From Actinocorallia herbida (GTDB lineage Bacteria; Actinomycetota; Actinomycetes; Streptosporangiales; Streptosporangiaceae): a DNA stretch of 64,000 nt. Both the position numbers and the translations under genes were made by a program. Shown piece after piece: positions 612 to 13,900 of this stretch (position 1 is its first letter; each line of letters opens with the position of its first letter). The DNA lies in the NCBI RefSeq assembly GCF_003751225.1, contig NZ_RJKE01000001.1, positions 1,736,001 through 1,800,000 of the forward strand, written 5' to 3'. The notes beneath the pieces were generated by a model. It saw nothing but the letters and a program-made list of their open reading frames with translations, searched no databases and had not been told where the DNA came from.

Positions 612-1517
612 TCAGGTTCTGGCGTTCCGGGTCGCTCCGGCGCAGGCCAGCATGACCGCGAGGATCGCCGCCCACTGGACCGGCGACAGGTGCTCGCCGA
701 GCAGCAGCACCCCGACGAGCGCGGCGACGGCGGGCTCCAGGCTCATGAGGATGCCGAAGACGCCCTGGGGGATGCGCCGCAGCGCCTCGAGCTCCAGCGT
801 GTAGGGCACCACGGACGACAGCAGCCCGACCCCGACGCCCAGCGCGACCAGTTCGGGGGTGAGCACCGACCAGCCGGCGTCGGCCAGGGCGGCCATCCCG
901 GGCGGGAGGACGAGGACCGTCGCCACCACACTGGCCAGCGCGAGGCCCGTGGCGCCCGGAAGGCGCCGTCCCGCGGCCGCCGCGGCGAAGATGTACAGGG
1001 CCCAGCCGAGGCCCGCCAGCAGCGCCCACAGGACGCCGGGCACGTTGACGTCGCCGCCGTCCCTGGCGAGGGCGACGACCCCGCCGAAGGCCAGCGCGGC
1101 CCACAGCAGGTCCAGCGGCCGCCGCGACGCCAGGACCGCCACGCACAGCGGCCCGAGGAACTCGATGGTCACCGCGATGCCGAGCGGGATGTGCTGGAGC
1201 GACTGGTAGATCGAGAAGTTCATCAGCGCGAGTGACCCGCCGAGCGCGGCCGCCGCGCCCAGGTCCCGCCGGGACGCCCCGCGCAGCACCCGCCACAGCC
1301 GCTTGCGCACCATGAACCCGACCACGACCGCCGAGGTCACCAGCCGCAGCACCACGATCCACGACGGCGGCAGCCGGTCGAACATCCCCTTGGCCAGGCC
1401 CGCCCCGAGCTGCACCGACAGGATCCCGAACAGCACGAGGACCGACGGCGGCACGGACCCGAGCCCGGGAATCCCCCCGGCCCTGGCCTCGTCGGCCTGC
1501 GCCGCGCTCACTCCCAA
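612..1517 (-). CDS. EamA/DMT-family exporter
   Basis: A 301-residue multi-spanning membrane protein with two tandem EamA halves, about ten predicted helices, similar in build to the RhtA/YdcZ metabolite exporters. The segment ending SVVPYTLELEALRRIPQGVFGILMS is typical of the second repeat of RhtA-like carriers, which export amino acids such as threonine or homoserine. The substrate here cannot be read from sequence. Its ATG lies inside the end of the upstream ABC permease gene (10-base overlap), which suggests translational coupling and one transcript with the exporter genes. It separates ctaA from the ABC pair, which are direct neighbours in the mycobacterial arrangement I recall. Confidence 0.88.
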   Translation of the reverse strand: MGVSAAQADEARAGGIPGLGSVPPSVLVLFGILSVQLGAGLAKGMFDRLPPSWIVVLRLVTSAVVVGFMVRKRLWRVLRGASRRDLGAAAALGGSLALMNFSIYQSLQHIPLGIAVTIEFLGPLCVAVLASRRPLDLLWAALAFGGVVALARDGGDVNVPGVLWALLAGLGWALYIFAAAAAGRRLPGATGLALASVVATVLVLPPGMAALADAGWSVLTPELVALGVGVGLLSSVVPYTLELEALRRIPQGVFGILMSLEPAVAALVGVLLLGEHLSPVQWAAILAVMLACAGATRNART

Positions 1518-2275
1518 CGGAAGAAGCGGGCGGCGAGCGCGAGGCCGGCGACCGCCCAGCCGGCGAGGATCAGCAGCTGGGCGCCAGGCAGGGCGGTGCC
1601 GTCGGCGAGGATCGCGCGCAGGGCGCCGGACAGCGCCGAGATCGGCAGCAGCTCCAGCACGGAGGCGAAGCCCGCGGGGAACTTGTCCAGCGGGAAGACC
1701 ACGCCGCCGAGAACGAGCAGCAGCAGGTAGACGAGGTTGGCCGCGGCGAGGGTGGCCTCGGCCCGCAGGGTCCCGGCCATGAGCAGGCCGAACCCGCTGA
1801 ACGCCGCGGTGCCCAGCAGGACGGCCAGGACCGCCGCGGCGGGGTTGCCCGCGGGGCTCCAGCCGAGCGCCAGCGCCACCGCGATGATCACGACGGCCTG
1901 GATCAGCTCGACCAGCACGACCGTCAGCGTCTTGGCGAGGATCAGCCCGGAACGCGGCAGCGGCGTCGCGCCGAGCCGCTTGAGCACCCCGTACCGGCGC
2001 TCGAAGCCCGTCCCGATCGCCTGCCCGGTGAACGCCGTCGACATGACGGCCAGGGCCAGCACGCCGGGCGTGAGGAAGTCCACCCGCTCGCCCTCCCCGA
2101 GGTCGAGCAGCGAAGTGAGGCTGAACACCACGAGCAGCAGCACCGGAATGATCAGCGTCAGCAGCAGCTGCTCGCCGTTCCGCAGCACCGCCTTCAACTC
2201 GTACGCGGCCTGCGCCCCCACCATCCGGGGCAACGACGCGGCCACCGGCCGAGGACTGAAATCCAGAACGGTCAT
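1508..2275 (-). CDS. ABC-2 type transporter permease
   Basis: A 255-residue membrane subunit of an ABC exporter, with about six hydrophobic segments and the ABC-2 fold typical of DrrB-like drug or lipid exporters. Start chosen at the ATG at 2275 because it overlaps the stop of the upstream ATPase gene by four bases (ATGA). A longer reading frame upstream has no ribosome site and lies entirely within the ATPase gene. It works with the ATPase encoded just before it; substrate unknown. The pair sits next to ctaA, as the homologous exporter does in mycobacteria, so a link to heme or respiratory maturation is possible but unproven. Confidence 0.9.
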   Translation of the reverse strand: MTVLDFSPRPVAASLPRMVGAQAAYELKAVLRNGEQLLLTLIIPVLLLVVFSLTSLLDLGEGERVDFLTPGVLALAVMSTAFTGQAIGTGFERRYGVLKRLGATPLPRSGLILAKTLTVVLVELIQAVVIIAVALALGWSPAGNPAAAVLAVLLGTAAFSGFGLLMAGTLRAEATLAAANLVYLLLLVLGGVVFPLDKFPAGFASVLELLPISALSGALRAILADGTALPGAQLLILAGWAVAGLALAARFFRWE

Positions 2276-3186
2276 CCGCGAAGCTCCCTGCCGGTCAGTT
2301 CCAGGAAGACGTCTTCCAGGGTGCGGCGTTCGATCCGCAGGTCTTCGGCGAGGACGCCGTGGGAGGCGCACCAGGCGGTGACGGTGGCCAGGAGTTCGGG
2401 GCCGACCTCGCCCTCGATGAGGTAGTGGCCGGCGGGGGACTCCTTGGCGGCGCTGCCCGCGGGGAGCGCGTTGAGCAGTTCGTCGAGGCCGAGTCCGGCG
2501 CGGGCGCGGAACCTGAGCTGGTGCTCGGCGCCGGTCAGCGCGGCGGGCGCGCCCTCGGCGACGACCCTGCCCCGGTCGATGATGACGATCTGGTCGGACA
2601 GCTGCTCGGCCTCGTCCATGAAGTGGGTGGTGAGCAGCACCGAGACCCCGGCGGCGCGCAGGTCGGCGATGAGCTCCCAGGTGGCGCGGCGCGCCTGAGG
2701 GTCGAGGCCCGCGGTCGGCTCGTCGAGGAACACCAGCTCGGGCCTGCCGACGATCGCCGCGGCCAGCGAAAGCCGCTGCTGCTGGCCGCCGGACAGCCGC
2801 CGGTAGGGCGTGCGGGCGTGCTCGGTGAGGCCGAGCCGGTCCATCAGCGCGGCGGGATCGAGCGGGTGGGTGTGGAAGGAGGCCATGAGGCGCAGGAACT
2901 CCCCGGCCTTGGCCGTGCCCGGCACCCCGCCCGTCTGCGGCATCACCCCGACCCGGGCGCGCAGCGCCCGGTCGCCGGGCTCGAGGCCGAGGACGCGGAC
3001 GGTCCCGCCGTCGTGCGCCCGGTACCCCTCGCAGATCTCCAAGGTGCTCGTCTTGCCCGCCCCGTTGGGTCCGAGCAGCGCGGTCACCTCACCGCGGCGG
3101 GCCGTGAACGACAGGTCCGCCACCGCGGTGGCCCGCCCATAGCGCTTGACCAGGCCGGTGATCTCCAGTGCGGGGGGTGCTGCCAT
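2272..3186 (-). CDS. ABC transporter ATP-binding protein (DrrA-like)
   Basis: A 304-residue nucleotide-binding subunit. Visible motifs are Walker A GPNGAGKTS near residue 40, signature LSGGQQQR, Walker B LVFLDEPTAGLD and the switch histidine in TTHFMDEAE. The C-terminal 80 residues form the extra domain usual in DrrA/CcmA-type exporters, with RTLEDVFLELTGRELRG at the end. Start chosen at the ATG at 3186, where similarity to the family begins. No Shine-Dalgarno sequence precedes it, but a TAGACT hexamer sits seven bases upstream, as in leaderless actinobacterial genes. Forms the exporter with the downstream permease. Confidence 0.94.
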   Translation of the reverse strand: MAAPPALEITGLVKRYGRATAVADLSFTARRGEVTALLGPNGAGKTSTLEICEGYRAHDGGTVRVLGLEPGDRALRARVGVMPQTGGVPGTAKAGEFLRLMASFHTHPLDPAALMDRLGLTEHARTPYRRLSGGQQQRLSLAAAIVGRPELVFLDEPTAGLDPQARRATWELIADLRAAGVSVLLTTHFMDEAEQLSDQIVIIDRGRVVAEGAPAALTGAEHQLRFRARAGLGLDELLNALPAGSAAKESPAGHYLIEGEVGPELLATVTAWCASHGVLAEDLRIERRTLEDVFLELTGRELRG

Positions 3187-3193
3187 GCAGGGA

Positions 3194-3199
3194 AGTCTA
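3194..3199 (-). promoter_or_regulatory. Candidate -10 element of a leaderless promoter
   Basis: TAGACT on the minus strand fits the actinobacterial TANNNT -10 pattern and lies seven bases before the ATG of the ABC ATPase gene, which lacks a ribosome-binding site. That spacing would put the transcript start at the ATG. No clear -35 is visible. Confidence 0.4.
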
Positions 3200-3323
3200 G
3201 ATGCGGGCTTTGCGGGCTCCGGCACGGGCCACGGGTAAAGAAGAACGTCGGAGGGGTGCTGGACACGGCCAATTCCGCGGTGGGGGCGGTTCCGGGGGAC
3301 GTCCGGTCTGGCACGGTCGGAGT

Positions 3324-4232
3324 ATGGGGGCTGAACTGAGGAAGCTGCGGGGGCGGATCCGGTCGATCAGCGCGACCGCGAAGATCACTCGCGCGCAGGA
3401 GCTGATCGCGGCGTCGCGCATCTCGCGGGCGCAGGCCCGGCAGGCGGCGTCACGGCCCTACGCGAGACAGATCACACGGGCGGTCAGCGCGCTGCTGACG
3501 CACAACGTGACCGAGGACCACGCGCTGCTGAACCGCGCGCCGGACACCTCCCGGGTCGCGATCCTCATGATCACCGGGGACCGGGGGTTCTGCGGCGCCT
3601 ACAACGCCAACGTCCTGCGGCACGGCAACGCCCTGGAGAAGCTGCTGCGCGGCCAGGGCAAGGAGGTCGTGTTCTACCTCTGCGGCACCAAGGGCGTCGA
3701 CAACTTCCGGTACAACCACCGGCCGATCGAGAAGTCCTGGCTGGGGCAGTCCGGCGAGCCGTCCTACGCCACCGCGGCCGACATCGGGCGGACCCTCGTC
3801 GAACGGTTCGACACCCCGACGGTCGAGGGCGGCGTGGGCGAGGTGCACGTCATCTACACCCGGTTCGTCTCGATGATCAACCAGGAGATGACGGTCCGGC
3901 GCATCCTGCCGCTGGCGGTCGAGGACGTCGAGGGGGAGCCCGGCGAGGGCCCGTCCGCCACCTACGACTTCGAGCCGACGGTCGGGGACGTCCTCGACGT
4001 CGTCATCCAGCAGTACGTGCGCGGCAGGATGTGGAACATGCTCCTGGAGTCCGCGGCGTCCGAGCACGCCGCCCGCCGCCAGGCGATGATGTCGGCCACC
4101 GACAACGCCAACGACCTGATCTTCAAGCTGACCCGCCGTGCCAACGAGGCCCGTCAGGCCGAGGTCACCAATGAGCTGATCGACATCGTCAGCGGCGCCA
4201 ACGCCCTCACCGACCAGCGGGCCGAAGACTGA
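3324..4232 (+). CDS. atpG: Orphan F1 ATP synthase gamma subunit
   Basis: A 302-residue gamma-subunit homolog, the rotor shaft of F1 ATP synthase. The N-terminal helix MGAELRKLRGRIRSIS leads into KITRAQELIAASRI, where most family members have AMEMIAASRI. The central domain carries GDRGFCGAYNANVLR, and the C-terminal helix is RRANEARQAEVTNELIDI. Length is normal and nothing looks broken. A GGAG sits only one base before the ATG, so the ribosome site is poor, but family alignment fixes the start. No other atp gene is in this window, whereas gamma normally lies between atpA and atpD. It may be a second copy for a modified or hydrolysis-controlled F1, or a relocated gene. Confidence 0.9.
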   Translation: MGAELRKLRGRIRSISATAKITRAQELIAASRISRAQARQAASRPYARQITRAVSALLTHNVTEDHALLNRAPDTSRVAILMITGDRGFCGAYNANVLRHGNALEKLLRGQGKEVVFYLCGTKGVDNFRYNHRPIEKSWLGQSGEPSYATAADIGRTLVERFDTPTVEGGVGEVHVIYTRFVSMINQEMTVRRILPLAVEDVEGEPGEGPSATYDFEPTVGDVLDVVIQQYVRGRMWNMLLESAASEHAARRQAMMSATDNANDLIFKLTRRANEARQAEVTNELIDIVSGANALTDQRAED

Positions 4233-4403
4233 CCGGGCACGGCCTTCCGCGCGGAGGCGCCGGGACTGGAAACGCCCGGTCACCGCTTTGCCGGAGGAGC
4301 CTTCAAGCGTTTGGAAAAGTTCCCCAGCTTCGGGTAAACCGGTCGGGCGTCTCCCGGTTCGCGGTGCGGCGCGAGCCGTTCGGGACTATGCGGGGGAACA
4401 GCG

Positions 4404-4700
4404 ATGGACCAGGAGCGCGCGCCGGAGAAGGCGCACGAGGAGACGTCCCTCAGCGCTGCGGAGAGCGCGGCGGCGGCCGCGCTGGCGCGCCGGTTCGCGT
4501 CCGACGACCCCGAGCTCGCCCGGCGGCTCGACACCCTCGGCGGCTACGAGACCAGCCCGCTCGGCCTGCCGTCGCGCTGGACCGCGGTGCCCGCGGCCCT
4601 GGTCGCGGCGCTGATCGCGATCGGCGCGCTCTTCGGCATGACGGTCTCGGCCGACGAGACCCCCGTGCCGGGGACGATGAACTCCCTTCATCTGAAGTAG
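4404..4700 (+). CDS. Small single-span membrane protein, unknown function
   Basis: Encodes 98 residues. The first 57 are charged and alanine-rich, and residues about 58-80 (AVPAALVAALIAIGALFGM) form one membrane helix followed by a short tail. A good GGGGGA ribosome site precedes the ATG. I recognise no named domain; the layout recalls small actinobacterial DUF3040-like membrane proteins, but that is not established. It lies between the orphan gamma gene and the arginine deiminase operon, with untranslated gaps on both sides, so co-transcription with either is uncertain. Confidence 0.65.
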   Translation: MDQERAPEKAHEETSLSAAESAAAAALARRFASDDPELARRLDTLGGYETSPLGLPSRWTAVPAALVAALIAIGALFGMTVSADETPVPGTMNSLHLK

Positions 4701-4919
4701 CGGGTCGCCAGGGCGCGGCCCCGGGTCAACGGGGCTCCCCGGCAGCATAAAAAGACCAGCAATTCGGGTATTACTCCCAGATCTTCATCCTCTTTGTCGG
4801 ATTTCGGAAAGAGTTTCGGTTCCGAACCCTCCGGGGAGGCAGAGTCTTGTCGGGAATCTTGTCCACCGGAACCCGTTTTCGGGGGACTTGATAGGGGCTC
4901 TGGTAGTTCGGGGGGCGAC
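4701..4919 (+). other. Intergenic leader of the arginine deiminase operon
   Basis: About 219 bases before the first permease gene, clearly richer in A and T than the surroundings (for example around 4745-4800). I see no convincing -35/-10 pair or operator. Its position makes it the likely control region of the arginine deiminase operon. An in-frame extension of the permease into this stretch lacks a ribosome site, whereas the ATG at 4920 has a G-rich one. Confidence 0.4.
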
Positions 4920-6353
4920 ATGGGGGACCCGCGTGGTCACACGGGAGCGCCCACGTCCGGAGCGACGGCGCTGGGTCCCGAGGACACCGTCGGCGGAGAC
5001 GTCTCCGCGGGCGGGAGACTCGGACTGCCGGGCGCGATCGCGCTGGTCATCGGAAACATCGTCGGCACCGGGATCTTCCTGCTGCCGACCTCGCTGGCGG
5101 CCATCGGGTCGGTGAGCATCCTCGTCCTGCTGCTGGTCACGATCGGCGCGATCGCCCTGGCGATCGTCTTCGGCAGGCTCGGCAGCCGGATCCCGGCAGG
5201 CGGTGGCCCCTACGCCTACGCCCGCGACGCGTTCGGCGAGTTCGCGGGCTTCTGGGTCGCCTGGTCGTTCTGGCTGACGGCCTGGATCGGCAACGCCGGC
5301 ATCGCGTTCGCCTGGGTCGGCTACGTCAACTCCCTCTTCGGCTGGCGCGCCGACAACCCGCTCCAGAACATCGCCATCGGCCTCGTCGGCCTGTGGATCC
5401 CGGCGTTCGTCAACCTCAGCGGCGTGAAGAACATCGGCCTGTTCCAGATGGTCACCACGATCCTGAAGTTCGCGCCGCTGCTCTTCGTCGGCCTCGTCGG
5501 CCTGTTCTTCGTCAACGGCGCCAACTTCCCCGCCTGGAACGCCAGCGGCGGCTCCCTGTGGGCGGCCATCGCGCTCGCCGCGGGCCTCATCCTCTTCGCC
5601 TACTCCGGCATGGAGAGCGTGACGATCGTCGCCGAGCGGCTCAAGGACCCGGTCCGCAACATCGGCAAGGCCAGCATCTACGGCGTGCTCGCCTGCGCCG
5701 CGATGTACCTGCTCGCCACCATCGCCATCTTCGGCACCGTGCCCGCGGGCCAGCTGACGAACTCCACCGCCCCGTTCGCCGACGCCATCAACAACATGTT
5801 CGGCGGCGGCATCTGGGGCAAGGTGATGGCCGCGTGCGCCGTCGTCTCCGGCATCGGCGCCCTGAACGGCTGGACGATGCTGGTCGCCGAGATGCCGATG
5901 GCCGCCGCCCAGGACCGGATGTTCCCGACCCCGTTCGCCCGGCTCTCGCGGCGCGGCGCCCCGGTGTTCGGCATCCTCCTCGGCACGATCCTCACCTCGA
6001 TCATGCTGGTGTACGCCTACCTGGGCTCCGAGCAGGGCTTCGACACGATCCTGCTGCTCGCGTCGTTCACCACCGCGCTGCCGTACTTCTTCTCCGCGGC
6101 GGCCCAGCTGTACTGGCTGGTCACCGGAGGCCGCGACGTCAACCGGGGCAGGCTCGTGCGCGACCTCGCCATCACCTGCCTCGCCCTGCTGTTCGGCGCG
6201 TGGATCGTCTACGGCGCGGGCGCGGACGCCGCCCTCCTGGGGATGCTCATGATGCTGGTCGGCGTCCCCGTCTACATCTGGGTCAAGGCCAAGCGCGGCG
6301 AGTACGGGCCGAACGAGCGCCGCGGCGTCGCCGCCCGCAACGAGACCGTCTAA
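4920..6353 (+). CDS. arcD: APC-family amino acid permease, probable arginine/ornithine exchanger
   Basis: A 477-residue permease of the amino acid-polyamine-organocation superfamily, with about twelve membrane helices. The first helix contains [12 protein letters not shown], the conserved glycine-rich substrate-binding break of APC carriers such as AdiC. As first gene of an arginine deiminase operon, with the arcA start 13 bases past its stop, it most likely swaps external arginine for ornithine; that role rests on context. Start chosen at the ATG at 4920 with GGGGGG just upstream; an upstream extension lacks a ribosome site and looks non-coding. The symbol arcD is by role, and some arcD genes belong to another carrier family. 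Confidence 0.85.
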
Positions 6354-6366
6354 GGGAGGGAACCCC

Positions 6367-7611
6367 ATGACTTTCCACGTCGATTCCGAGGTCGGCCGGC
6401 TCAAGCAGGTCCTGCTGCACAAGCCCGAGCTGGCGCTCCAGCGGCTGACCCCGTCCAACAAGGACGAGCTGCTCTTCGACGACGTGCTCTGGGTGGAGCG
6501 CGCCAAGGAGGAGCACGACGAGTTCCGCGGCCTCCTGGAGAGCCGCGGCATCCGGGTCCACATGCTCGCCGACCTGCTGCGCGAGACCATCGGCATCCCC
6601 GAGGCCAAGAAGTACATCCTCGACCACATCATCGACGACCGCTTCTTCGGCCCGCTGGCCACCGACGGGATCCGCAACACCCTCGACGCGATGGACGACG
6701 TGTTCCTCGGCCGGACCCTGACGGGCGGCATCACCAAGCGCGAGATGCTCCAGCGGATGTCGGAGCCGAAGTCCATCGCGTTCCACTCGATGGACATGGA
6801 CGGGTTCGTGCTCCCGCCGCTGCCCAACCACCTGTTCACCCGCGACACCTCGTGCTGGGTGTACGACGGCGTGTCCATCAACGCGATGCGCAAGAAGGCG
6901 CGCATGCGCGAGACCACGAACATGGAGGCCATCTACCGCTTCCACCCGATGTTCGCCGCCGGGTACGACCGTCCCGAGGCCGACGGGTACCACATCTGGA
7001 ACCACGGCTCGGTGTCCGCGCCCGCCACCCTGGAGGGCGGCGACGTGCTCGTCATCGGCGAGGGCGCGGTGCTCATCGGGATGAGCGAGCGATCCCAGCC
7101 GCAGTCGGTGGAGATGCTCGCCAGGAACCTGTTCAAGCACGGGTCCGCCAAGAAGATCGTCGCGCTGAACATGCCGAAGGCCCGCGCGTTCATGCACCTG
7201 GACACGGTGATGACGAACGTCAGCCCCGGCGTGTTCACCAAGTACGCGGGCATGGGGATGCTCGCGTCCTACACGATCGAGCCGGGCGACACCGACAAGG
7301 AGCTCAAGGTCACCGACCACGCTCCGGAGGACATGCACAAGGCCATCGGCCGGGCCATCGGCATGGACGAGGTCAAGATGCTCACCGCCACCCAGGACGT
7401 CATGGCGGCCGAGCGCGAGCAGTGGGACGACGGGTGCAACGTGCTCACCCTGGAGCCCGGCGTGGTCGTCGCCTACGAGCGCAACACCACCACCAACAAC
7501 TTCCTGCGCCGTAACGGCGTGGAGGTCCTCACCATCAAGGGCAGCGAGCTGGGCCGCGGCCGGGGCGGCCCGCGGTGCATGTCCTGCCCGATGGAGCGCG
7601 AAGCGAACTAG
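6367..7611 (+). CDS. arcA: Arginine deiminase
   Basis: Hydrolyses arginine to citrulline and ammonia, the first step of the arginine deiminase pathway. The 414 residues match the usual length. Family hallmarks are FTRDTS with the catalytic Asp, EGGDV with the catalytic Glu, HLDTVMT with the catalytic His, and the C-terminal nucleophile Cys in RCMSCPMER. All active-site residues are present. The ATG follows AGGGAGGG. It is the second gene of the operon, between the permease and ornithine carbamoyltransferase. Ammonia release can protect from acid and feeds ATP production through arcB and arcC. Confidence 0.97.
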
Positions 7612-7654
7612 GGCGAGGGGAGCTCGCCGTACGAGATCTCGGGGGAGACACACC

Positions 7655-8659
7655 ATGGGGTTCAACCTGAAAGGCCGCTCCTTCCTGCGGGAGCTGGACT
7701 TCACGCCGAAGGAATGGCGGTTCCTGCTCGACCTGTCGGCCGATCTGAAGGCCGCCAAGTACAGCGGGTCCGAGCAGCGCAGGCTCCGGGGCAAGAACAT
7801 CGCCCTGATCTTCGAGAAGACCTCGACCCGCACCCGCTGCGCGTTCGAGGTCGCCGCGCACGACGAGGGCGCGCACACCACCTACCTCGACCCGACGGGC
7901 TCGCAGATCGGGCACAAGGAGTCGATGAAGGACACCGCGCGCGTCCTCGGCCGGATGTTCGACGCGATCGAGTATCGCGGCAGCAAGCAGATGCTGGTGG
8001 AGGAGCTCGCCGAGTACGCGGGGGTGCCCGTCTACAACGGGCTCACCGACGAGTGGCACCCGACCCAGATGCTCGCCGACCAGCTCACCATGATGGAGCA
8101 CTGCGACAAGCCGCTCCGCGAGATCACCTTCGCCTACCTCGGCGACGCCAGGTTCAACATGGCGAACTCCTACATCGCGGCGGCGGCGGTCACCGGGATG
8201 AACTGCCGGATCGTCGCGCCCAAGGAGCTGTGGCCCGACAAGGACTTCGTGGTCAAACCGGCCAAGGAGGTCGCCGCGAAGACCGGCGCCGACATCAAGA
8301 TCACCGAGAAGGTGGACGAGGGCGTCAAGGGCGCCGACTTCGTCATCACCGACGTGTGGGTCTCCATGGGCGAGCCCAAGGAGGTCTGGAAGGACCGCGT
8401 GAAGATGCTGCGGCCCTACCAGGTCAACGCCGCGGTGATGAAGAAGACCGGGAACCCGATGGTGAAGTTCATGCACTGCCTCCCGGCCTTCCACAACCGG
8501 GAGACCACGGTCGGCGAGGACATCTTCGCCAAGACCGGGATGGACGGCCTCGAAGTCACCGAGGAGGTCTTCGAGTCCGACGCCTCGATCGTCTTCGACG
8601 AGGCGGAGAACCGGATGCACACGATCAAGGCCGTCATGGTCGCCACCCTGGGGCAGTGA
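7655..8659 (+). CDS. arcB: Ornithine carbamoyltransferase (catabolic)
   Basis: In this operon it would split citrulline with phosphate into ornithine and carbamoyl phosphate, the reverse of the anabolic ArgF reaction. The 334 residues contain STRTR, the carbamoyl-phosphate-binding motif near residue 57, HPTQ around residue 135, and the ornithine/catalytic motif HCLPAFH near residue 275. Sequence alone does not separate catabolic from anabolic enzymes. The catabolic assignment follows from its place between arcA and arcC. The stop of this gene is two bases from the arcC start, so the two are translationally linked. Confidence 0.95.
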
Positions 8660-8661
8660 CG

Positions 8662-9597
8662 ATGCGCGTCGTCGTCGCCCTCGGAGGCAACGCCCTGCTG
8701 AAGCGGGGCCAGAAACCCGACGCCGACATCCAGCGGGACAACGTGATGACGGCCGTCCGGTCGCTCTCGCCGCTGGCCGCCGAGCACGAGCTGATCATCA
8801 CCCACGGCAACGGCCCCCAGGTCGGCGTCCTGGCGCTGGAGAGCGCCAGCGACCCCAACCTCACCAGGCCGTACCCGTTCGACACGCTCGGCGCGATGAC
8901 CGAGGGCATGATCGGCTACTGGATGCTCCAGGCGCTCCAGAACGCGCTGCCCGGCCGGCAGATCGTCTCGATGGTCAACCAGACGCTCGTGTCGGTCACC
9001 GATCCGGCGTTCCAGAACCCGACGAAGTTCGTCGGCGAGGTCTACACCAGGGACGAGGCGGAGAAACTGGCGCAGGCCAACGGGTGGACCGTCAAACCCG
9101 ACGGCGAGCACTACCGGCGGGTCGTCCCGTCACCGGTGCCGCAGCGCGTCGTGGAGACCAGGCTCATCCGAGGGCTCGTGCGCCAGGGCGTCATCGTCAT
9201 CTGCGCCGGAGGCGGCGGCGTGCCCGTCGTCCGCAACGAGAAGGGCCAGCTCGAGGGAGTCGAGGCGGTCATCGACAAGGACCTCACCGGCTCCCTGCTC
9301 GCCGAGGCGCTGGAAGCCGACGCCTTCCTCATCCTCACCGACGTGCCCGAGGTGCTGCGGCACTACGGCACGCCCGGCCAGGAGGCGATCCGGCACACCA
9401 CCCCGCACGAGCTGCGGGCCGAGGAGTTCCCCGCGGGCTCGATGGGGCCCAAGGTCGAGGCCGCGTGCGGGTTCGTCGAGCGCACCGGCGACATGGCCGC
9501 GATCGGCAGCCTCGACCAGTGCATGGAGATCCTGGCCGGCGCCCGGGGCACGATCATCACGCCCAACGCCACCTGGCCGCTCGCCAGCACGCTTTGA
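8662..9597 (+). CDS. arcC: Carbamate kinase
   Basis: Transfers the phosphate of carbamoyl phosphate to ADP, giving ATP, carbon dioxide and ammonia; this is the energy-yielding last step of the arginine deiminase pathway. The 311 residues belong to the amino acid kinase fold and start with VVALGGNALL, then ITHGNGPQVG and CAGGGGVPVV, all carbamate kinase motifs. The ending MGPKVEAACGFVE...AAIGSL is also typical. Its ATG is two bases after the arcB stop. With the two genes before it, it completes the ATP-forming route. Confidence 0.96.
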   Translation: MRVVVALGGNALLKRGQKPDADIQRDNVMTAVRSLSPLAAEHELIITHGNGPQVGVLALESASDPNLTRPYPFDTLGAMTEGMIGYWMLQALQNALPGRQIVSMVNQTLVSVTDPAFQNPTKFVGEVYTRDEAEKLAQANGWTVKPDGEHYRRVVPSPVPQRVVETRLIRGLVRQGVIVICAGGGGVPVVRNEKGQLEGVEAVIDKDLTGSLLAEALEADAFLILTDVPEVLRHYGTPGQEAIRHTTPHELRAEEFPAGSMGPKVEAACGFVERTGDMAAIGSLDQCMEILAGARGTIITPNATWPLASTL

Positions 9598-9682
9598 CGC
9601 CGGAGCCGCCGGTGGGGGCGCGACGTGCTCTGCGCGCGCTCCCATCGGCCACATCCCTTCCCTCTCTTCCCTGGGAGACCGC

Positions 9683-11113
9683 GTGGAGACGTCCTTCTGG
9701 CGCAGCCTGTGGCGCACCAAACCCGTCGACGAGATCGTGCGCGAGGGCGGCGGCGGCGAGGGCGGCGAGCTCAAGCGCTCGATGACGCTCATCCAGCTGA
9801 CGTTCTTCAGCGTCGGCGCCACCCTCGGCACCGGGATCTTCGTCGTCATGGGCGAGGCGACCCCGCTGGCCGGGCCCGCGGTAGTCCTGGCGTTCCTGCT
9901 CTCGGCGATCACCGCGCTGTTCTCCGCGCTGTCCTACGCGGAACTCGCCGGGACCATCCCGGTGTCCGGATCGTCGTACTCCTACACGTACGCCACCATG
10001 GGCGAGCTCGTCGCCTGGGTCTGCGGCTGGTGCCTGATCCTCGAATACGGCGTGTCGGTGTCGGCCGTCGCCGTCGGGTGGGCGCAGTACCTCAACGACT
10101 TCCTCGACAAGGCCTTCGGCGTCAAGATCCCCGACGCGTGGTCGCAGGCGCCCGACAAGGGCGGCGTCATCAACATCACCGCGGTCCTCATCGTCGCCGC
10201 GATGACGTTCCTGCTCATGCGGGGCGCCTCCGAGAGCGCCAAGGTCAACACCGCGATGGTGTTCTTCAAGCTCGGCCTGCTCATCTTCTTCATCGTCGTC
10301 GGGTTCACCGGCTTCAACTCCGGCAACCTCAGCCCGTTCATGCCGCTCGGGTTCGCCGGGGTCAGCGCCGCGGCGTCCCAGGTGTTCTTCTCCTACATCG
10401 GCTTCGACGCCGCCTCCACCGCGGGCGAGGAGGCCAAGAACCCCAAACGGGACCTGCCGCTGGCCATCATCCTGTCGCTCGCGATCGTCACGATCGTCTA
10501 CGTGCTCGTCGCGCTCGTCGCCGTCGGCGCGCTGCCCTGGACCGAGCTCGACAGCGACACCGAGGCGTCCCTGTCCGCGATCCTCACCGACGTCACCGGC
10601 GCCACCTGGCCCGCGCTGCTGCTGTCGGCGGGCGCCGTCATCGCCATCACCAGCGTCGTCCTGACCGTGCTGTACGGGCAGACCCGCATCCTGTTCGCGA
10701 TGTCCCGCGACGGGCTCGTGCCGCCGCTGTTCCAGAAGATCAACCGGCGGACCTCGGTCCCGGTCGCCAACACCCTCGTCGTCGGCGGGTTCGTCTCGCT
10801 CCTCGCCGCGCTCGTCCCGCTCGACCATCTCACCGACGCGACGAGCATCGGCACGCTCTTCGCGTTCGCGCTGGTCAACCTCGGCGTCATCGTGCTCCGG
10901 CGGACCAAGCCGCACCTGCCGCGCAGCTTCAAGACACCGCTCTACCCGCTCACCCCGCTCCTCGGCGTCTTCTTCTGCCTGTACGTCATGCAGGGGCTCC
11001 GCCCCGTCACCTGGCTCGTCTTCGCCCTGTGGACCCTCGCAGGGCTCGTCTTCTACTTCGGCTACAGCCGCAGGCACTCGCGCCTGCTCCGCGCCCAGAG
11101 GGAGATGCGCTGA
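9683..11113 (+). CDS. APC-family (cationic amino acid) permease
   Basis: A 476-residue permease with about twelve membrane helices, closest in style to the CAT/YfnA group of APC carriers. Key parts are SVGATLGTGIFVVMGEA in helix 1 and FFSYIGFDAASTAGEEAKNP in helix 6, the CAT-type signature. It starts at GTG after GGGAGA, 85 bases downstream of arcC, and its stop overlaps the start of the Usp gene (TGATG). It is a second transporter in the same operon, different in type from the first. It may import arginine or export ornithine or another amine; the substrate is inferred from context only. Confidence 0.88.
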   Translation: METSFWRSLWRTKPVDEIVREGGGGEGGELKRSMTLIQLTFFSVGATLGTGIFVVMGEATPLAGPAVVLAFLLSAITALFSALSYAELAGTIPVSGSSYSYTYATMGELVAWVCGWCLILEYGVSVSAVAVGWAQYLNDFLDKAFGVKIPDAWSQAPDKGGVINITAVLIVAAMTFLLMRGASESAKVNTAMVFFKLGLLIFFIVVGFTGFNSGNLSPFMPLGFAGVSAAASQVFFSYIGFDAASTAGEEAKNPKRDLPLAIILSLAIVTIVYVLVALVAVGALPWTELDSDTEASLSAILTDVTGATWPALLLSAGAVIAITSVVLTVLYGQTRILFAMSRDGLVPPLFQKINRRTSVPVANTLVVGGFVSLLAALVPLDHLTDATSIGTLFAFALVNLGVIVLRRTKPHLPRSFKTPLYPLTPLLGVFFCLYVMQGLRPVTWLVFALWTLAGLVFYFGYSRRHSRLLRAQREMR

Positions 11114-12021
11114 TGCCCGCTGAAAGAGTCCTCGTCGGCTACGTCGACGACCGGCGGGGCGCCGACGCCGTCGCCCTCGCCGCCTGCGCGGCGAGCGAAC
11201 CCGGCACCGAACTCGTGCTCGGGCACATCCGGATCGACGCGTGGCCGGACGTGCCCGGACCCGGGAACGTCGACGCCGAATGGGAGCGGTTCCTCGACGA
11301 CCAGGCCCGGGAGGTCCTCGCGCACGGCGCCCGGCGCGCCGAGGAGTGCGGGGTCGAACCCGCCGAGCAGCGCGTCTTCACCCGGCGCGGCAGCGGACGG
11401 GGCCTCGCCGCCCTCGCCGGGAAGGTGAAGGCCCGGGTCGTCGTCATCGGCTCCGCGCCGGGCGGGCCGCGCACGGGCATCTCCCTCGGCAGCACCGCCG
11501 ACCAGCTCCTGCACGGTTCGTCCGTGCCGGTGATGATCGCGCCGAAGGGGTTCGCCGACCGGGGCGTCCGGACCTTCGACCGCGTCACCTGCGCCTACCT
11601 GCGGGTCCCCGAATCGACCCCGGCCGTCGCCGCGGCCGCCGCGATCGCCGCGCGGCGCAAGATCCCGCTGCGGCTGCTCACCTTCGCCGTCGACTCGCCG
11701 GTGCGCGGCAAGGGCTCGGCCGTCCTGGCCGAACAGCAGCTCCGCCGTCTCGTCGACGCGCTGGAGACCGACCTGGCCGCCGCCGCCAAGGAGGCCGCCG
11801 CAGGCAGCACCCTCACTAAACGCGACGTCATCACCCAGGTCGCCGAAGGCCGCGACGCCGCCCACGCCGTCCACGCCGCAGGCTGGACCGAAGGCGACCT
11901 CCTCGTCTGTGCCTCCAGCACCTCAGGCCCCCTCCGCCGGGTCTTCATGGGCGACATGTCCATGAAGATCCTCCGCACCATCCCCTGCCCGGCCATGGTC
12001 CTCCCCAGAACCATCAAATGA
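11113..12021 (+). CDS. Universal stress protein, two Usp domains
   Basis: A 302-residue cytoplasmic protein of two tandem Usp folds, the common actinobacterial form. The first domain (residues about 3-145) ends with VIGSAPGGPRTGISLGSTAD and SSVPVMIAP, matching the ATP-binding G-2X-G-9X-G(S/T) loop of UspA-type proteins. The second domain (about 155-300) keeps the end of this loop less well. It overlaps the permease stop by one base, so it is translated with the arginine deiminase operon. In mycobacteria, two-domain Usp proteins are induced by hypoxia (known for the family), which suits an operon for fermentative ATP production. Confidence 0.88.
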   Translation: MPAERVLVGYVDDRRGADAVALAACAASEPGTELVLGHIRIDAWPDVPGPGNVDAEWERFLDDQAREVLAHGARRAEECGVEPAEQRVFTRRGSGRGLAALAGKVKARVVVIGSAPGGPRTGISLGSTADQLLHGSSVPVMIAPKGFADRGVRTFDRVTCAYLRVPESTPAVAAAAAIAARRKIPLRLLTFAVDSPVRGKGSAVLAEQQLRRLVDALETDLAAAAKEAAAGSTLTKRDVITQVAEGRDAAHAVHAAGWTEGDLLVCASSTSGPLRRVFMGDMSMKILRTIPCPAMVLPRTIK

Positions 12022-12169
12022 GACCGGGCGATCGCGCCACCGCGTCGCGCCGAGGCTTACCGCACCGCGACGAAACGGCGCAGCCGATCAATGTCGTGCT
12101 ATCCACCGCGACGGGAGTACACCCAAGTACGATGCGGGCACCAGCCTTCGTGAGATTCCCGGGGGACGG

Positions 12170-12748
12170 ATGGCCAGGGTCCGACCGCTGCGTCCCGACG
12201 ACCCCGGCGAGATCGGCGGTTTCCGCCTGAGGGGCCGGCTCGGAAGCGGAGGCCAGGGCGTCGTCTACCTGGCGGACTCCTCCTCCGGACCGGTCGCGGT
12301 GAAGTGCCTGCACCCCCACGTCCTCGCCGAAGGCCAAGAGCGGAAGATCCTCCGGCGGGAGCTGCGCGCCGCCGGCCGTGTCCACCCGTTCTGCACGGCC
12401 CCGGTCCTGACCGCCGACGTCGAAGGCGGCCGGCCCTACATCGTCAGCGAGTACGTCGAGGGCCCGACGTTGCGCGAGCTCGTGGAAGAGGACGGCCCGC
12501 TCTCCGCGGACGGCCTCGGCAGGCTCGCCATCGGGACCGCGACCGCGCTCACGGCCATCCACCGGGCCGGGATCGTCCACCGGGACTTCAAGCCGGGCAC
12601 CATCGTGCTCGGGGCCGACGGGCCGCGCGTCATCGACGTCGGCATCGCCCGGATCCTGGACGTGAGCTCGTCGCTGTCGTCCGGTCTGGTCGGCACGCCC
12701 GCGTTCCTCGCGCCCGATGGTCTCCGGACGGGTCGCGGATCCTCCTGA
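12170..12748 (+). pseudogene. Ser/Thr protein kinase, truncated in the activation loop
   Basis: The first 185 residues are a Hanks-type kinase: glycine loop GSGGQGVVY, VAVKCL with the ATP-anchoring Lys, HRDFKPGTIV with the catalytic Asp, then VIDVGIAR where DFG is expected (DVG). Similarity runs to GTPAFLAPD, the place of the APE motif, and then stops abruptly; the frame ends ten codons later. The whole C-lobe, normally more than 100 further residues, is missing. The base sequence continues in another frame into a beta-propeller remnant, so an internal deletion probably fused the two parts. An active kinase is unlikely. The start ATG has GGGGGACGG before it. Confidence 0.82.
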
Positions 12749-12948
12749 CGGCGGTGCCGGAGAAGATCGAGGGACCCGTTCCGGCGATTCTGAGTCCCGG
12801 GTTCGTGGTGGTGACCGCCGCGACGGCCAAGGCCGTCTTCGTCGCCGGAGACGCGTCCCCTGGCGGCACCCGGGTGCCCGTGGAGCGCCGCCGGGACGGC
12901 AACACCAGGGACTACGCCCGCCTGTGCCTGCTGGACGCGCGCACCGGC
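12715..12948 (+). pseudogene. Remnant of a C-terminal beta-propeller (PD40/WD40-like)
   Basis: In a different frame from the kinase, overlapping its last codons, the DNA reads WSPDGSRILLTAVPEK and then GFVVVTAATAKAVFVAGDAS and RLCLLDARTG. WSPDG is the hallmark of PD40/TolB-type propeller blades. Kinases with such sensor domains occur in actinomycetes. I read this as the far end of the same original gene, joined out of frame. No clear natural stop is seen, so the right boundary is arbitrary. Confidence 0.6.
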
Positions 12949-13074
12949 CTCCTCCTTCGCCCCGATCCCCGCCGGCTGACTGCGGGCCGGGGCTCCAAGC
13001 GGGTGGTCCGGTGGGGGTGGAGTAGGGTCTGCGGGCGGCGGCCGGGGATTCTACTGGACAACACCGGGCAAAAG

Positions 13075-13093
13075 TTAGGTAAGGCTTGCCTGT
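13075..13093 (+). promoter_or_regulatory. Iron-box-like sequence (DtxR/IdeR/DmdR type)
   Basis: TTAGGTAAGGCTTGCCTGT matches 14 of 19 positions of the DtxR-family iron box TTAGGTTAGGCTAACCTAA (consensus from memory). The left half and centre match best. It lies 70 bases before the chosen sufR start, so an iron-dependent regulator could act on the suf promoter. Binding is inference. Confidence 0.5.
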
Positions 13094-13141
13094 GTGAGTG
13101 GGATTACCTTCTTTCGTTTGGCTGCATGGAAGGAATTACGG

Positions 13142-13157
13142 CACACTGGCGTTGTGA
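13142..13157 (+). promoter_or_regulatory. Candidate SufR operator
   Basis: CACA-N7-TGTG is a perfect inverted repeat ending six bases before the sufR ATG. It can also be read as ACACT-N5-TGTGA, which is the form I recall as reported for mycobacterial SufR. Its position fits autorepression of the suf operon by SufR. The recollection of the motif should be verified. Confidence 0.5.
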
Positions 13158-13162
13158 AAAAC

Positions 13163-13900
13163 ATGCCCGAGAACGCGTCGCAGGTCGGGGCCGGTGCGCC
13201 GGCCGCGTCAGGCGTGCCACGGGCCGAGCGGGACACCCGTGCGCGGGTGGCCCGGCTCATCCTGGAGAACGGGCCGGTGGCGGCGTCCGCCCTGGGGGAG
13301 CGGCTGGGGCTCACGCCCGCGGCCGTCCGCAGGCATCTGGACGCGCTGCTGGCCGAAGGCATGATCGAGGTCGAGGTCAAGCGCGCCCGTCCCGCCGCGA
13401 CCCGCGGCAGGGGCCGTCCGGCGAAGCTGTTCGCCATCACCGACAGGGGCCGCAACACCTTCGTCCACGCCTATGACGATCTCGCGGCCAACGCGCTGCG
13501 CTTCCTCGCGGAGGCGGCAGGACCGCAGGCCGTCTCGGAGTTCGCGCGCCGCCAGCTCGCGGGCCTGGAGGGGCGCATCGGCCCCCGACTGCGCGCGCTG
13601 CCCCCGGATCAACGGGTGCGCGCGCTGGTGGAGGCCCTCTCGGCCGAGGGCTACGCGGCCTCGTCGAGCCAGGCGCCCCATGTCCTGGGCGGATTCCAGG
13701 TGTGCCAGCACCACTGCCCGGTCGCACACGTGGCCGCGCGGTTCCCCCAGCTGTGCGAGGCCGAGACCGAGGCGTTCGCGCGCATGCTCGACACCCCGGT
13801 GCAGCGGCTGGCGACGATCGCCCATGGCGACGGCGTCTGCACCACCCACGTGTCACCGGTAAAAGCAGGTAACGAGGAGTCCGGAGGGATCTCCCTATGA
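13163..13900 (+). CDS. sufR: SufR, Fe-S-sensing repressor of the suf operon
   Basis: A 245-residue regulator. Residues about 25-90 form a winged helix-turn-helix ([20 protein letters not shown], then [14 protein letters not shown]). The C-terminal half has the cysteines and histidines expected to hold a [4Fe-4S] cluster: [21 protein letters not shown] and a later GVCTTH. In other bacteria the clustered form represses suf. Start chosen at ATG 13163; GTGs at 13154 and 13094 are in frame but would run through the operator-like repeat and the iron-box edge. None has a good ribosome site, so a leaderless transcript is possible. Its end overlaps sufB by four bases. Confidence 0.92.

Follow-up and report, generated by a model that had tools for sequence, protein, structure and literature searches.

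In Arabidopsis, one ATP synthase is served by two gamma paralogues, ATPC1 and ATPC2, and with the gamma2 isoform the chloroplast enzyme is described as keeping its activity in the dark (PMC5522872). In mycobacteria, a C-terminal extension of the alpha subunit is described to dock on gamma, resulting in a latent enzyme (PMC11672644, PMC8698299). ATP from the arginine pathway has been described as available for proton extrusion through the H+-ATPase (PMC6942593). An account of Nonomuraea gerenzanensis counts ATP-synthase genes among the duplicated ones and places the arginine deiminase (ADI) pathway under pH homeostasis; the portions of that account considered here do not name atpG and do not link the duplication with the ADI pathway (PMC5431353). 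A search of titles and abstracts in the open-licence PMC literature found none that joined atpG with arginine deiminase.

The locus compared here lies in the window, a 64-kb stretch of DNA (C1:1736001-1800000) from the 9.8-Mb, one-contig genome of Actinocorallia herbida. It contains an arginine deiminase cassette that is long established in Streptosporangiales and includes a second gamma subunit gene of its own, atpG2. The cassette resembles the arginine deiminase (arcDABC) operon in having arcA, arcB, arcC and permeases in order, but adds the gamma subunit, a universal stress protein (Usp) and often also a DUF3040 protein, and some relatives are without arcB or arcC. A pair of gamma paralogues alongside a single ATP synthase recalls Arabidopsis; however, the isoforms described there belong to a plant plastid, are tied to redox regulation and have no arginine genes, and the claim of homology is limited to gamma itself. 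Nonomuraea gerenzanensis, with its described duplication of ATP-synthase genes, belongs to the same bacterial order.

Gene content of the cassette

The frame around the block begins with ctaA, whose reading is cut at base 1 of the window, followed by an EamA-like transporter (612-1517, minus strand; family named by eye) that is kept between ctaA and the ABC pair. The left border of the block is the ABC ATPase (2272-3225, minus strand), a conserved member of the frame, and the right border is sufR (13163-13900, plus strand; HTH matches), with sufB directly after it. All genes from atpG2 to the kinase fragment lie on the plus strand. The first, atpG2 (3324-4232), encodes a second ATP-synthase gamma subunit matching PF00231 with 296 bits over profile positions 2-285 of 285. 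A small membrane protein of 98 aa (4404-4700) and an APC permease (4794-6353, with an uncertain start, perhaps at 4920; PF13520) come next. The latter may be called ArcD-like by its position; both permeases of the window are assigned to the APC family, and the first adjoins arcA in most loci compared. The arginine deiminase gene arcA (6367-7611; PF02274, 371 bits), arcB for the catabolic ornithine carbamoyltransferase (7655-8659; PF00185 and PF02729) and arcC for carbamate kinase (8662-9597; PF00696) are found together, making the arginine deiminase gene set complete, and arcC is the single carbamate kinase match in the genome. Downstream lie the second APC permease (9683-11113; PF13520, PF13906), a universal stress protein with two Usp stretches (11113-12021; PF00582) and a truncated Ser/Thr kinase (12170-12748; PF00069, 170 of 263 positions), which is outside the conserved cassette. 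The GC content within the block is 0.665-0.740, and the first 24 kb of the window spans 0.646-0.749.

The genes that the sequence-only reading had named for the block, namely a gamma subunit, a membrane protein, an arc operon, a Usp gene and a kinase remnant, are all present. What it had called an orphan atpG is an extra gamma. The housekeeping atp operon sits elsewhere, at C1:8184294, and the atpG of the window is thus a second copy. First listed as one item among several, atpG2 is the conserved and unusual part of the block.

The small membrane protein appears to be a diverged DUF3040 protein. The window copy scores 19.6 bits against PF11239 (E 0.0011), below the Pfam cut-off of 24.7, and the four relatives' copies scanned score above it. 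In 19 of 27 loci, the gap separating atpG2 from the following arc gene encodes a DUF3040-like protein; four of these 19 copies had belonged to the search model.

The truncated kinase between usp and sufR had been taken as the right edge of the block. No match to it was found in the corresponding stretches of two congeners, and it was seen in the genome of the window only; it marks no shared edge. Its closest paralogue in the genome is 58% identical, and kinase-domain matches there number 74. The remnant was therefore rejected as a right edge.

Position and age of the cassette

The mycobacterial neighbourhood cited in the sequence-only reading holds outside mycobacteria: the order ctaA-eamA-ABC-sufR recurs across a family-wide set of 69 suf loci (59 of 60 fetched stretches plus 10 others; the 60th stretch, an arc locus of G037, lacks sufB and was left out). 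The ABC genes are present with no arc gene there in 38 of the 69 loci and are absent from view in two. From the end of the ABC ATPase to sufR, these 38 arc-less loci measure at most 0.7 kb in 13 cases and at most 1.5 kb in 21, so that loci with the ABC genes close to sufR, which were sought, were found. Two arc-less loci have wide gaps of 8.4 kb (G002) and 12.5 kb (G013). In six loci (G000, G016, G075, G109, G085 and G098), the arginine cassette separates the ABC ATPase from sufR, and this placement was seen in all three genomes examined from the genus of the window. Lone cassette genes occupy the same interval in three loci (G119, G067 and G091). In another 20 of the 69 loci, the cassette instead separates eamA from the ABC permease; in 19 of these, no more than 0.7 kb lies between the end of the ABC ATPase and sufR. 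Some or all of the block recurs in 26 further genomes that carry atpG2.

In the arcA tree (41 rows, including 13 of the 20 eamA-ABC loci), the eamA-ABC rows form one group (100/100), and the ABC-sufR rows together with other rows form a second (100/100). The ABC-sufR rows are not a single group, and two rows from other settings, L115 of Bailinhaonella and L240, fall among them. Trees of arcA, arcB, arcC and atpG had been proposed as a check on horizontal gain; those of arcA and atpG were built, and arcA and atpG2 group largely by lineage, which argues against recent gain.

Because the frame recurs, arc-less loci exist and the genus shares the placement, the block is an old addition to the frame. 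The proposal that it was added to an older arrangement is thus borne out by the arc-less loci. The opposing expectation, that close relatives carry the same block, holds within the genus. The place of the cassette beside the iron-sulfur genes is old and common to relatives, and the content of the block fits the suggested role in low-oxygen or acid survival.

The second gamma subunit and its linkage to arginine genes

Genome contigs were scanned for gamma subunits with 13 atpG2 proteins, and the best 80 of 194 relatives were kept. Among these best 80 loci, 54 have atpA and atpD adjoining gamma and are ordinary atp operons, and the remaining 26 all lie within the arginine cassette. No atpA or atpD match was found beside atpG2 in any of the 26, and arcA is in view in 25 (the contig of L105 ends after arcD). 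Upstream of atpG2 are the ABC/suf frame in 11 loci and a divergent pyrB-like gene in 12; the other three are on short contigs. This split between suf and pyr surroundings indicates that the cassette has at least two chromosomal homes, with atpG2 travelling along. Two loci of the pyr home viewed by eye (L109 and L115) have pyrR, pyrB and pyrC, with carA also in L109. The cassette there is divergent from the pyrR-pyrB-pyrC operon, whose ATCase product also consumes carbamoyl phosphate.

Within a 120-genome sample of the family, atpG2 was found in 14 genomes, each time beside arcA (including G071, with pieces on contig ends, and G087 and G111, where arcA is cut by a contig end). Carriers named in the contig scan belong to Actinocorallia, Actinomadura, Streptosporangium, Nonomuraea, Planobispora, Sinosporangium and Bailinhaonella. 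An arcA match of at least 69% is present in 42 of the 120 genomes, plus two cut by contig ends. The carriers of arcA thus far outnumber those of atpG2, indicating that the arginine cassette works without atpG2. A search of the class sampled 394 genomes, 353 of them outside the family, and no outside-family gamma closer than 56% was among the matches listed.

The two gammas of the host genome are 56% identical, and its epsilon and c genes are single. Epsilon is likewise single in 10 of 10 atpG2 genomes and c in 9 of 10. As these subunits are not duplicated, a working AtpG2 would need housekeeping partners. An exact-arm search with count thresholds, which is a weak test, found no shared palindromic operator in the 14 regions upstream of atpG2.

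Some cassettes carry additional genes. An extra permease follows usp in L130, L154 and L159, with 43-46% identity to the first permease of the window. In Actinocorallia sp. API 0066, 4.8 kb separate atpG2 from arcD (L061:4180-8942); by eye, the minus strand of this insert encodes an ATP-grasp protein and a methyltransferase resembling PCMT, and the plus strand a regulator of the XRE type; the insert is perhaps a graspetide-type peptide cluster within the cassette.

The reading frames are open in all 13 atpG2 genes examined, with products of 299-307 aa as extracted. In the gamma tree, atpG2 forms a single clade (100/100) apart from 29 other gammas, and the six outside-family gammas included fall among the operon gammas. 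Simple counting on few pairs gave dN/dS values of 0.27-0.42 for atpG2, 0.10-0.23 for operon atpG and 0.15 for arcA (one pair). Judged by its sequence, atpG2 is an intact gamma paralogue under purifying selection, less tightly held and faster evolving than its operon sister.

Residues were compared between 27 atpG2 and 79 operon gammas among the fetched sequences, near relatives included. R277, Q278, T282 and E284 of the gamma C-terminal helix, which we take to have a role in the catch loop, are unchanged in all sequences of both sets. Six other residues (E100, P229, E233, R253, K256 and Q283) are present in 76-79 of the 79 operon gammas and absent from all 27 atpG2. In addition, W237 is fixed in atpG2, and I174 is replaced by V in 27 of 27. 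K256 is not universal among gammas, being G in Caldalkalibacillus. The predicted AtpG2 model (pLDDT 76) has helices at 2-59 and 220-301 and shows the coiled-coil and central domain of gamma, the nearest PDB chains being mycobacterial gammas (TM 0.82-0.83). W237 and five of the six lost residues map to the C-terminal helix of this model; from these positions, we infer that the lost residues and W237 may face the alpha-beta bearing. Neither gamma of Actinocorallia herbida has the mycobacterial gamma loop, which was rejected as a difference between AtpG and AtpG2. Taken together, AtpG2 resembles the operon-type AtpG (PF00231) in full length, fold and core residues but is coded outside the atp operon, beside arc genes, with the six conserved residues gone. 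Residence in the atp operon does not itself define a gamma protein.

Possible roles of AtpG2

The alpha subunit of the host aligns with the mycobacterial tail up to M. smegmatis residue 540, and a similar tail was seen in 11 of 12 main loci viewed, its own included (L162 gave no alpha). By analogy with mycobacteria, an alpha subunit with this type of C-terminal extension suggests that the housekeeping ATP synthase is probably latent. A latent enzyme would be poor at proton extrusion; a dedicated gamma in the cassette could relieve latency.

The linkage to arc genes at two homes, the intact frames, the single clade, the gamma fold and the residue signature favour AtpG2 as an alternative shaft for the housekeeping ATP synthase. 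Under low oxygen, acid or energy stress, AtpG2 would be produced along with ArcA and would take the place of the usual gamma in some of the F1Fo complexes, working with the ordinary alpha, beta, epsilon and c. In the boldest form of this reading, Streptosporangiales swap the rotor shaft of F1Fo, and the gamma of the arginine cassette would turn the enzyme into an ATP-driven pump, or retune it in another way, when arginine replaces respiration; we regard this tentatively, as a possibility that falls short of an even chance. The exchanged shaft would then ease the latent, synthesis-only enzyme into ATP-driven proton pumping, and ammonia and ATP from arginine would support internal pH and membrane potential. 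That AtpG2 lets a latent enzyme pump protons is the preferred mechanism, yet it is unproven, the least certain step and, taken by itself, doubtful. As a whole, the picture of a long-established cassette that supplies some of the F1Fo complexes with a gamma isoform in place of the ordinary one seems to us evenly poised between right and wrong.

Variation in the cassette bears on the source of ATP. Of 22 relatives' loci with enough sequence to judge, 16 have arcA, arcB and arcC, three are missing arcB alone, and three are missing both arcB and arcC. Three genomes with atpG2 (G016, G070 and G004) have no close arcB and no ordinary arcC, and G001 has no close arcB. ATP from carbamoyl phosphate therefore cannot be the general partner of atpG2, and arginine-pathway ATP as its obligatory partner is not supported. 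What remains at the loci of G016, G070 and G004 is a core of arcA, atpG2 and a permease, to which two of the three add Usp, and citrulline may be the end product in these genomes, given the missing arcB and carbamate kinase. For the reduced loci, acid protection through ammonia is at least as good a fit as the supply of ATP. A different state was seen in G051, where arcA and arcC are separated by a 46-aa remnant of arcB that contains a stop codon (L065, G051:C40:349604-349747); arcB is decaying at this locus, and a separate arcB-like gene is on C90.

AtpG2 largely retains the residues at which the alpha extension is reported to dock: H175, R193 and Y231 in all 27, and L104 and R235 in 25 of 27. 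AtpG2 thus does not escape the brake in an obvious way, and loss of the docking site is not supported as a mechanism. The kept residues would also suit an AtpG2 that itself acts as a brake, slowing or blocking ATP hydrolysis and sparing ATP in dormancy or hypoxia. Such a brake would fit the adjoining Usp, through dormancy, and would have no need for the carbamate kinase that three carriers are without; however, an extra brake seems less needed on a housekeeping enzyme that is probably latent, with the alpha extension already in place, which leaves this explanation rather unlikely.

A further explanation is that AtpG2 no longer turns in F1Fo and is a passenger or moonlighting duplicate kept by its arc linkage. 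The faster evolution of atpG2, the many arc cassettes without it and the pieces on contig ends in G071 are in line with such a duplicate, but the 13 intact frames, the purifying selection, the constant position beside arcA across two chromosomal homes and the signature common to all 27 sequences make it unlikely. The recent horizontal gain suggested in the sequence-only reading was rejected as extremely improbable: related genera do include loci without the block, but its placement is common to the three genus genomes and several Actinomadura, its GC is ordinary, the arcA and atpG2 trees largely follow lineages, and no insertion signature was seen, with no tRNA found in the 64-kb window and no mobile-element gene among 10 scanned products.

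The shaft swap touches an open question, the one-way running of some ATP synthases, actinobacterial ones included. As a naturally occurring paralogue of gamma with ties to fermentative ATP production, AtpG2 would offer a ready variant with which to probe the gamma residues that set coupling and direction. If AtpG2 assembles, it would be a case of a bacterium that changes one F1Fo subunit instead of encoding a second enzyme, and the shaft swap, if true, would be a bacterial counterpart of the plant gamma isoforms. The second gamma in an arginine cassette hints that this group of soil bacteria refits its ATP synthase under stress.
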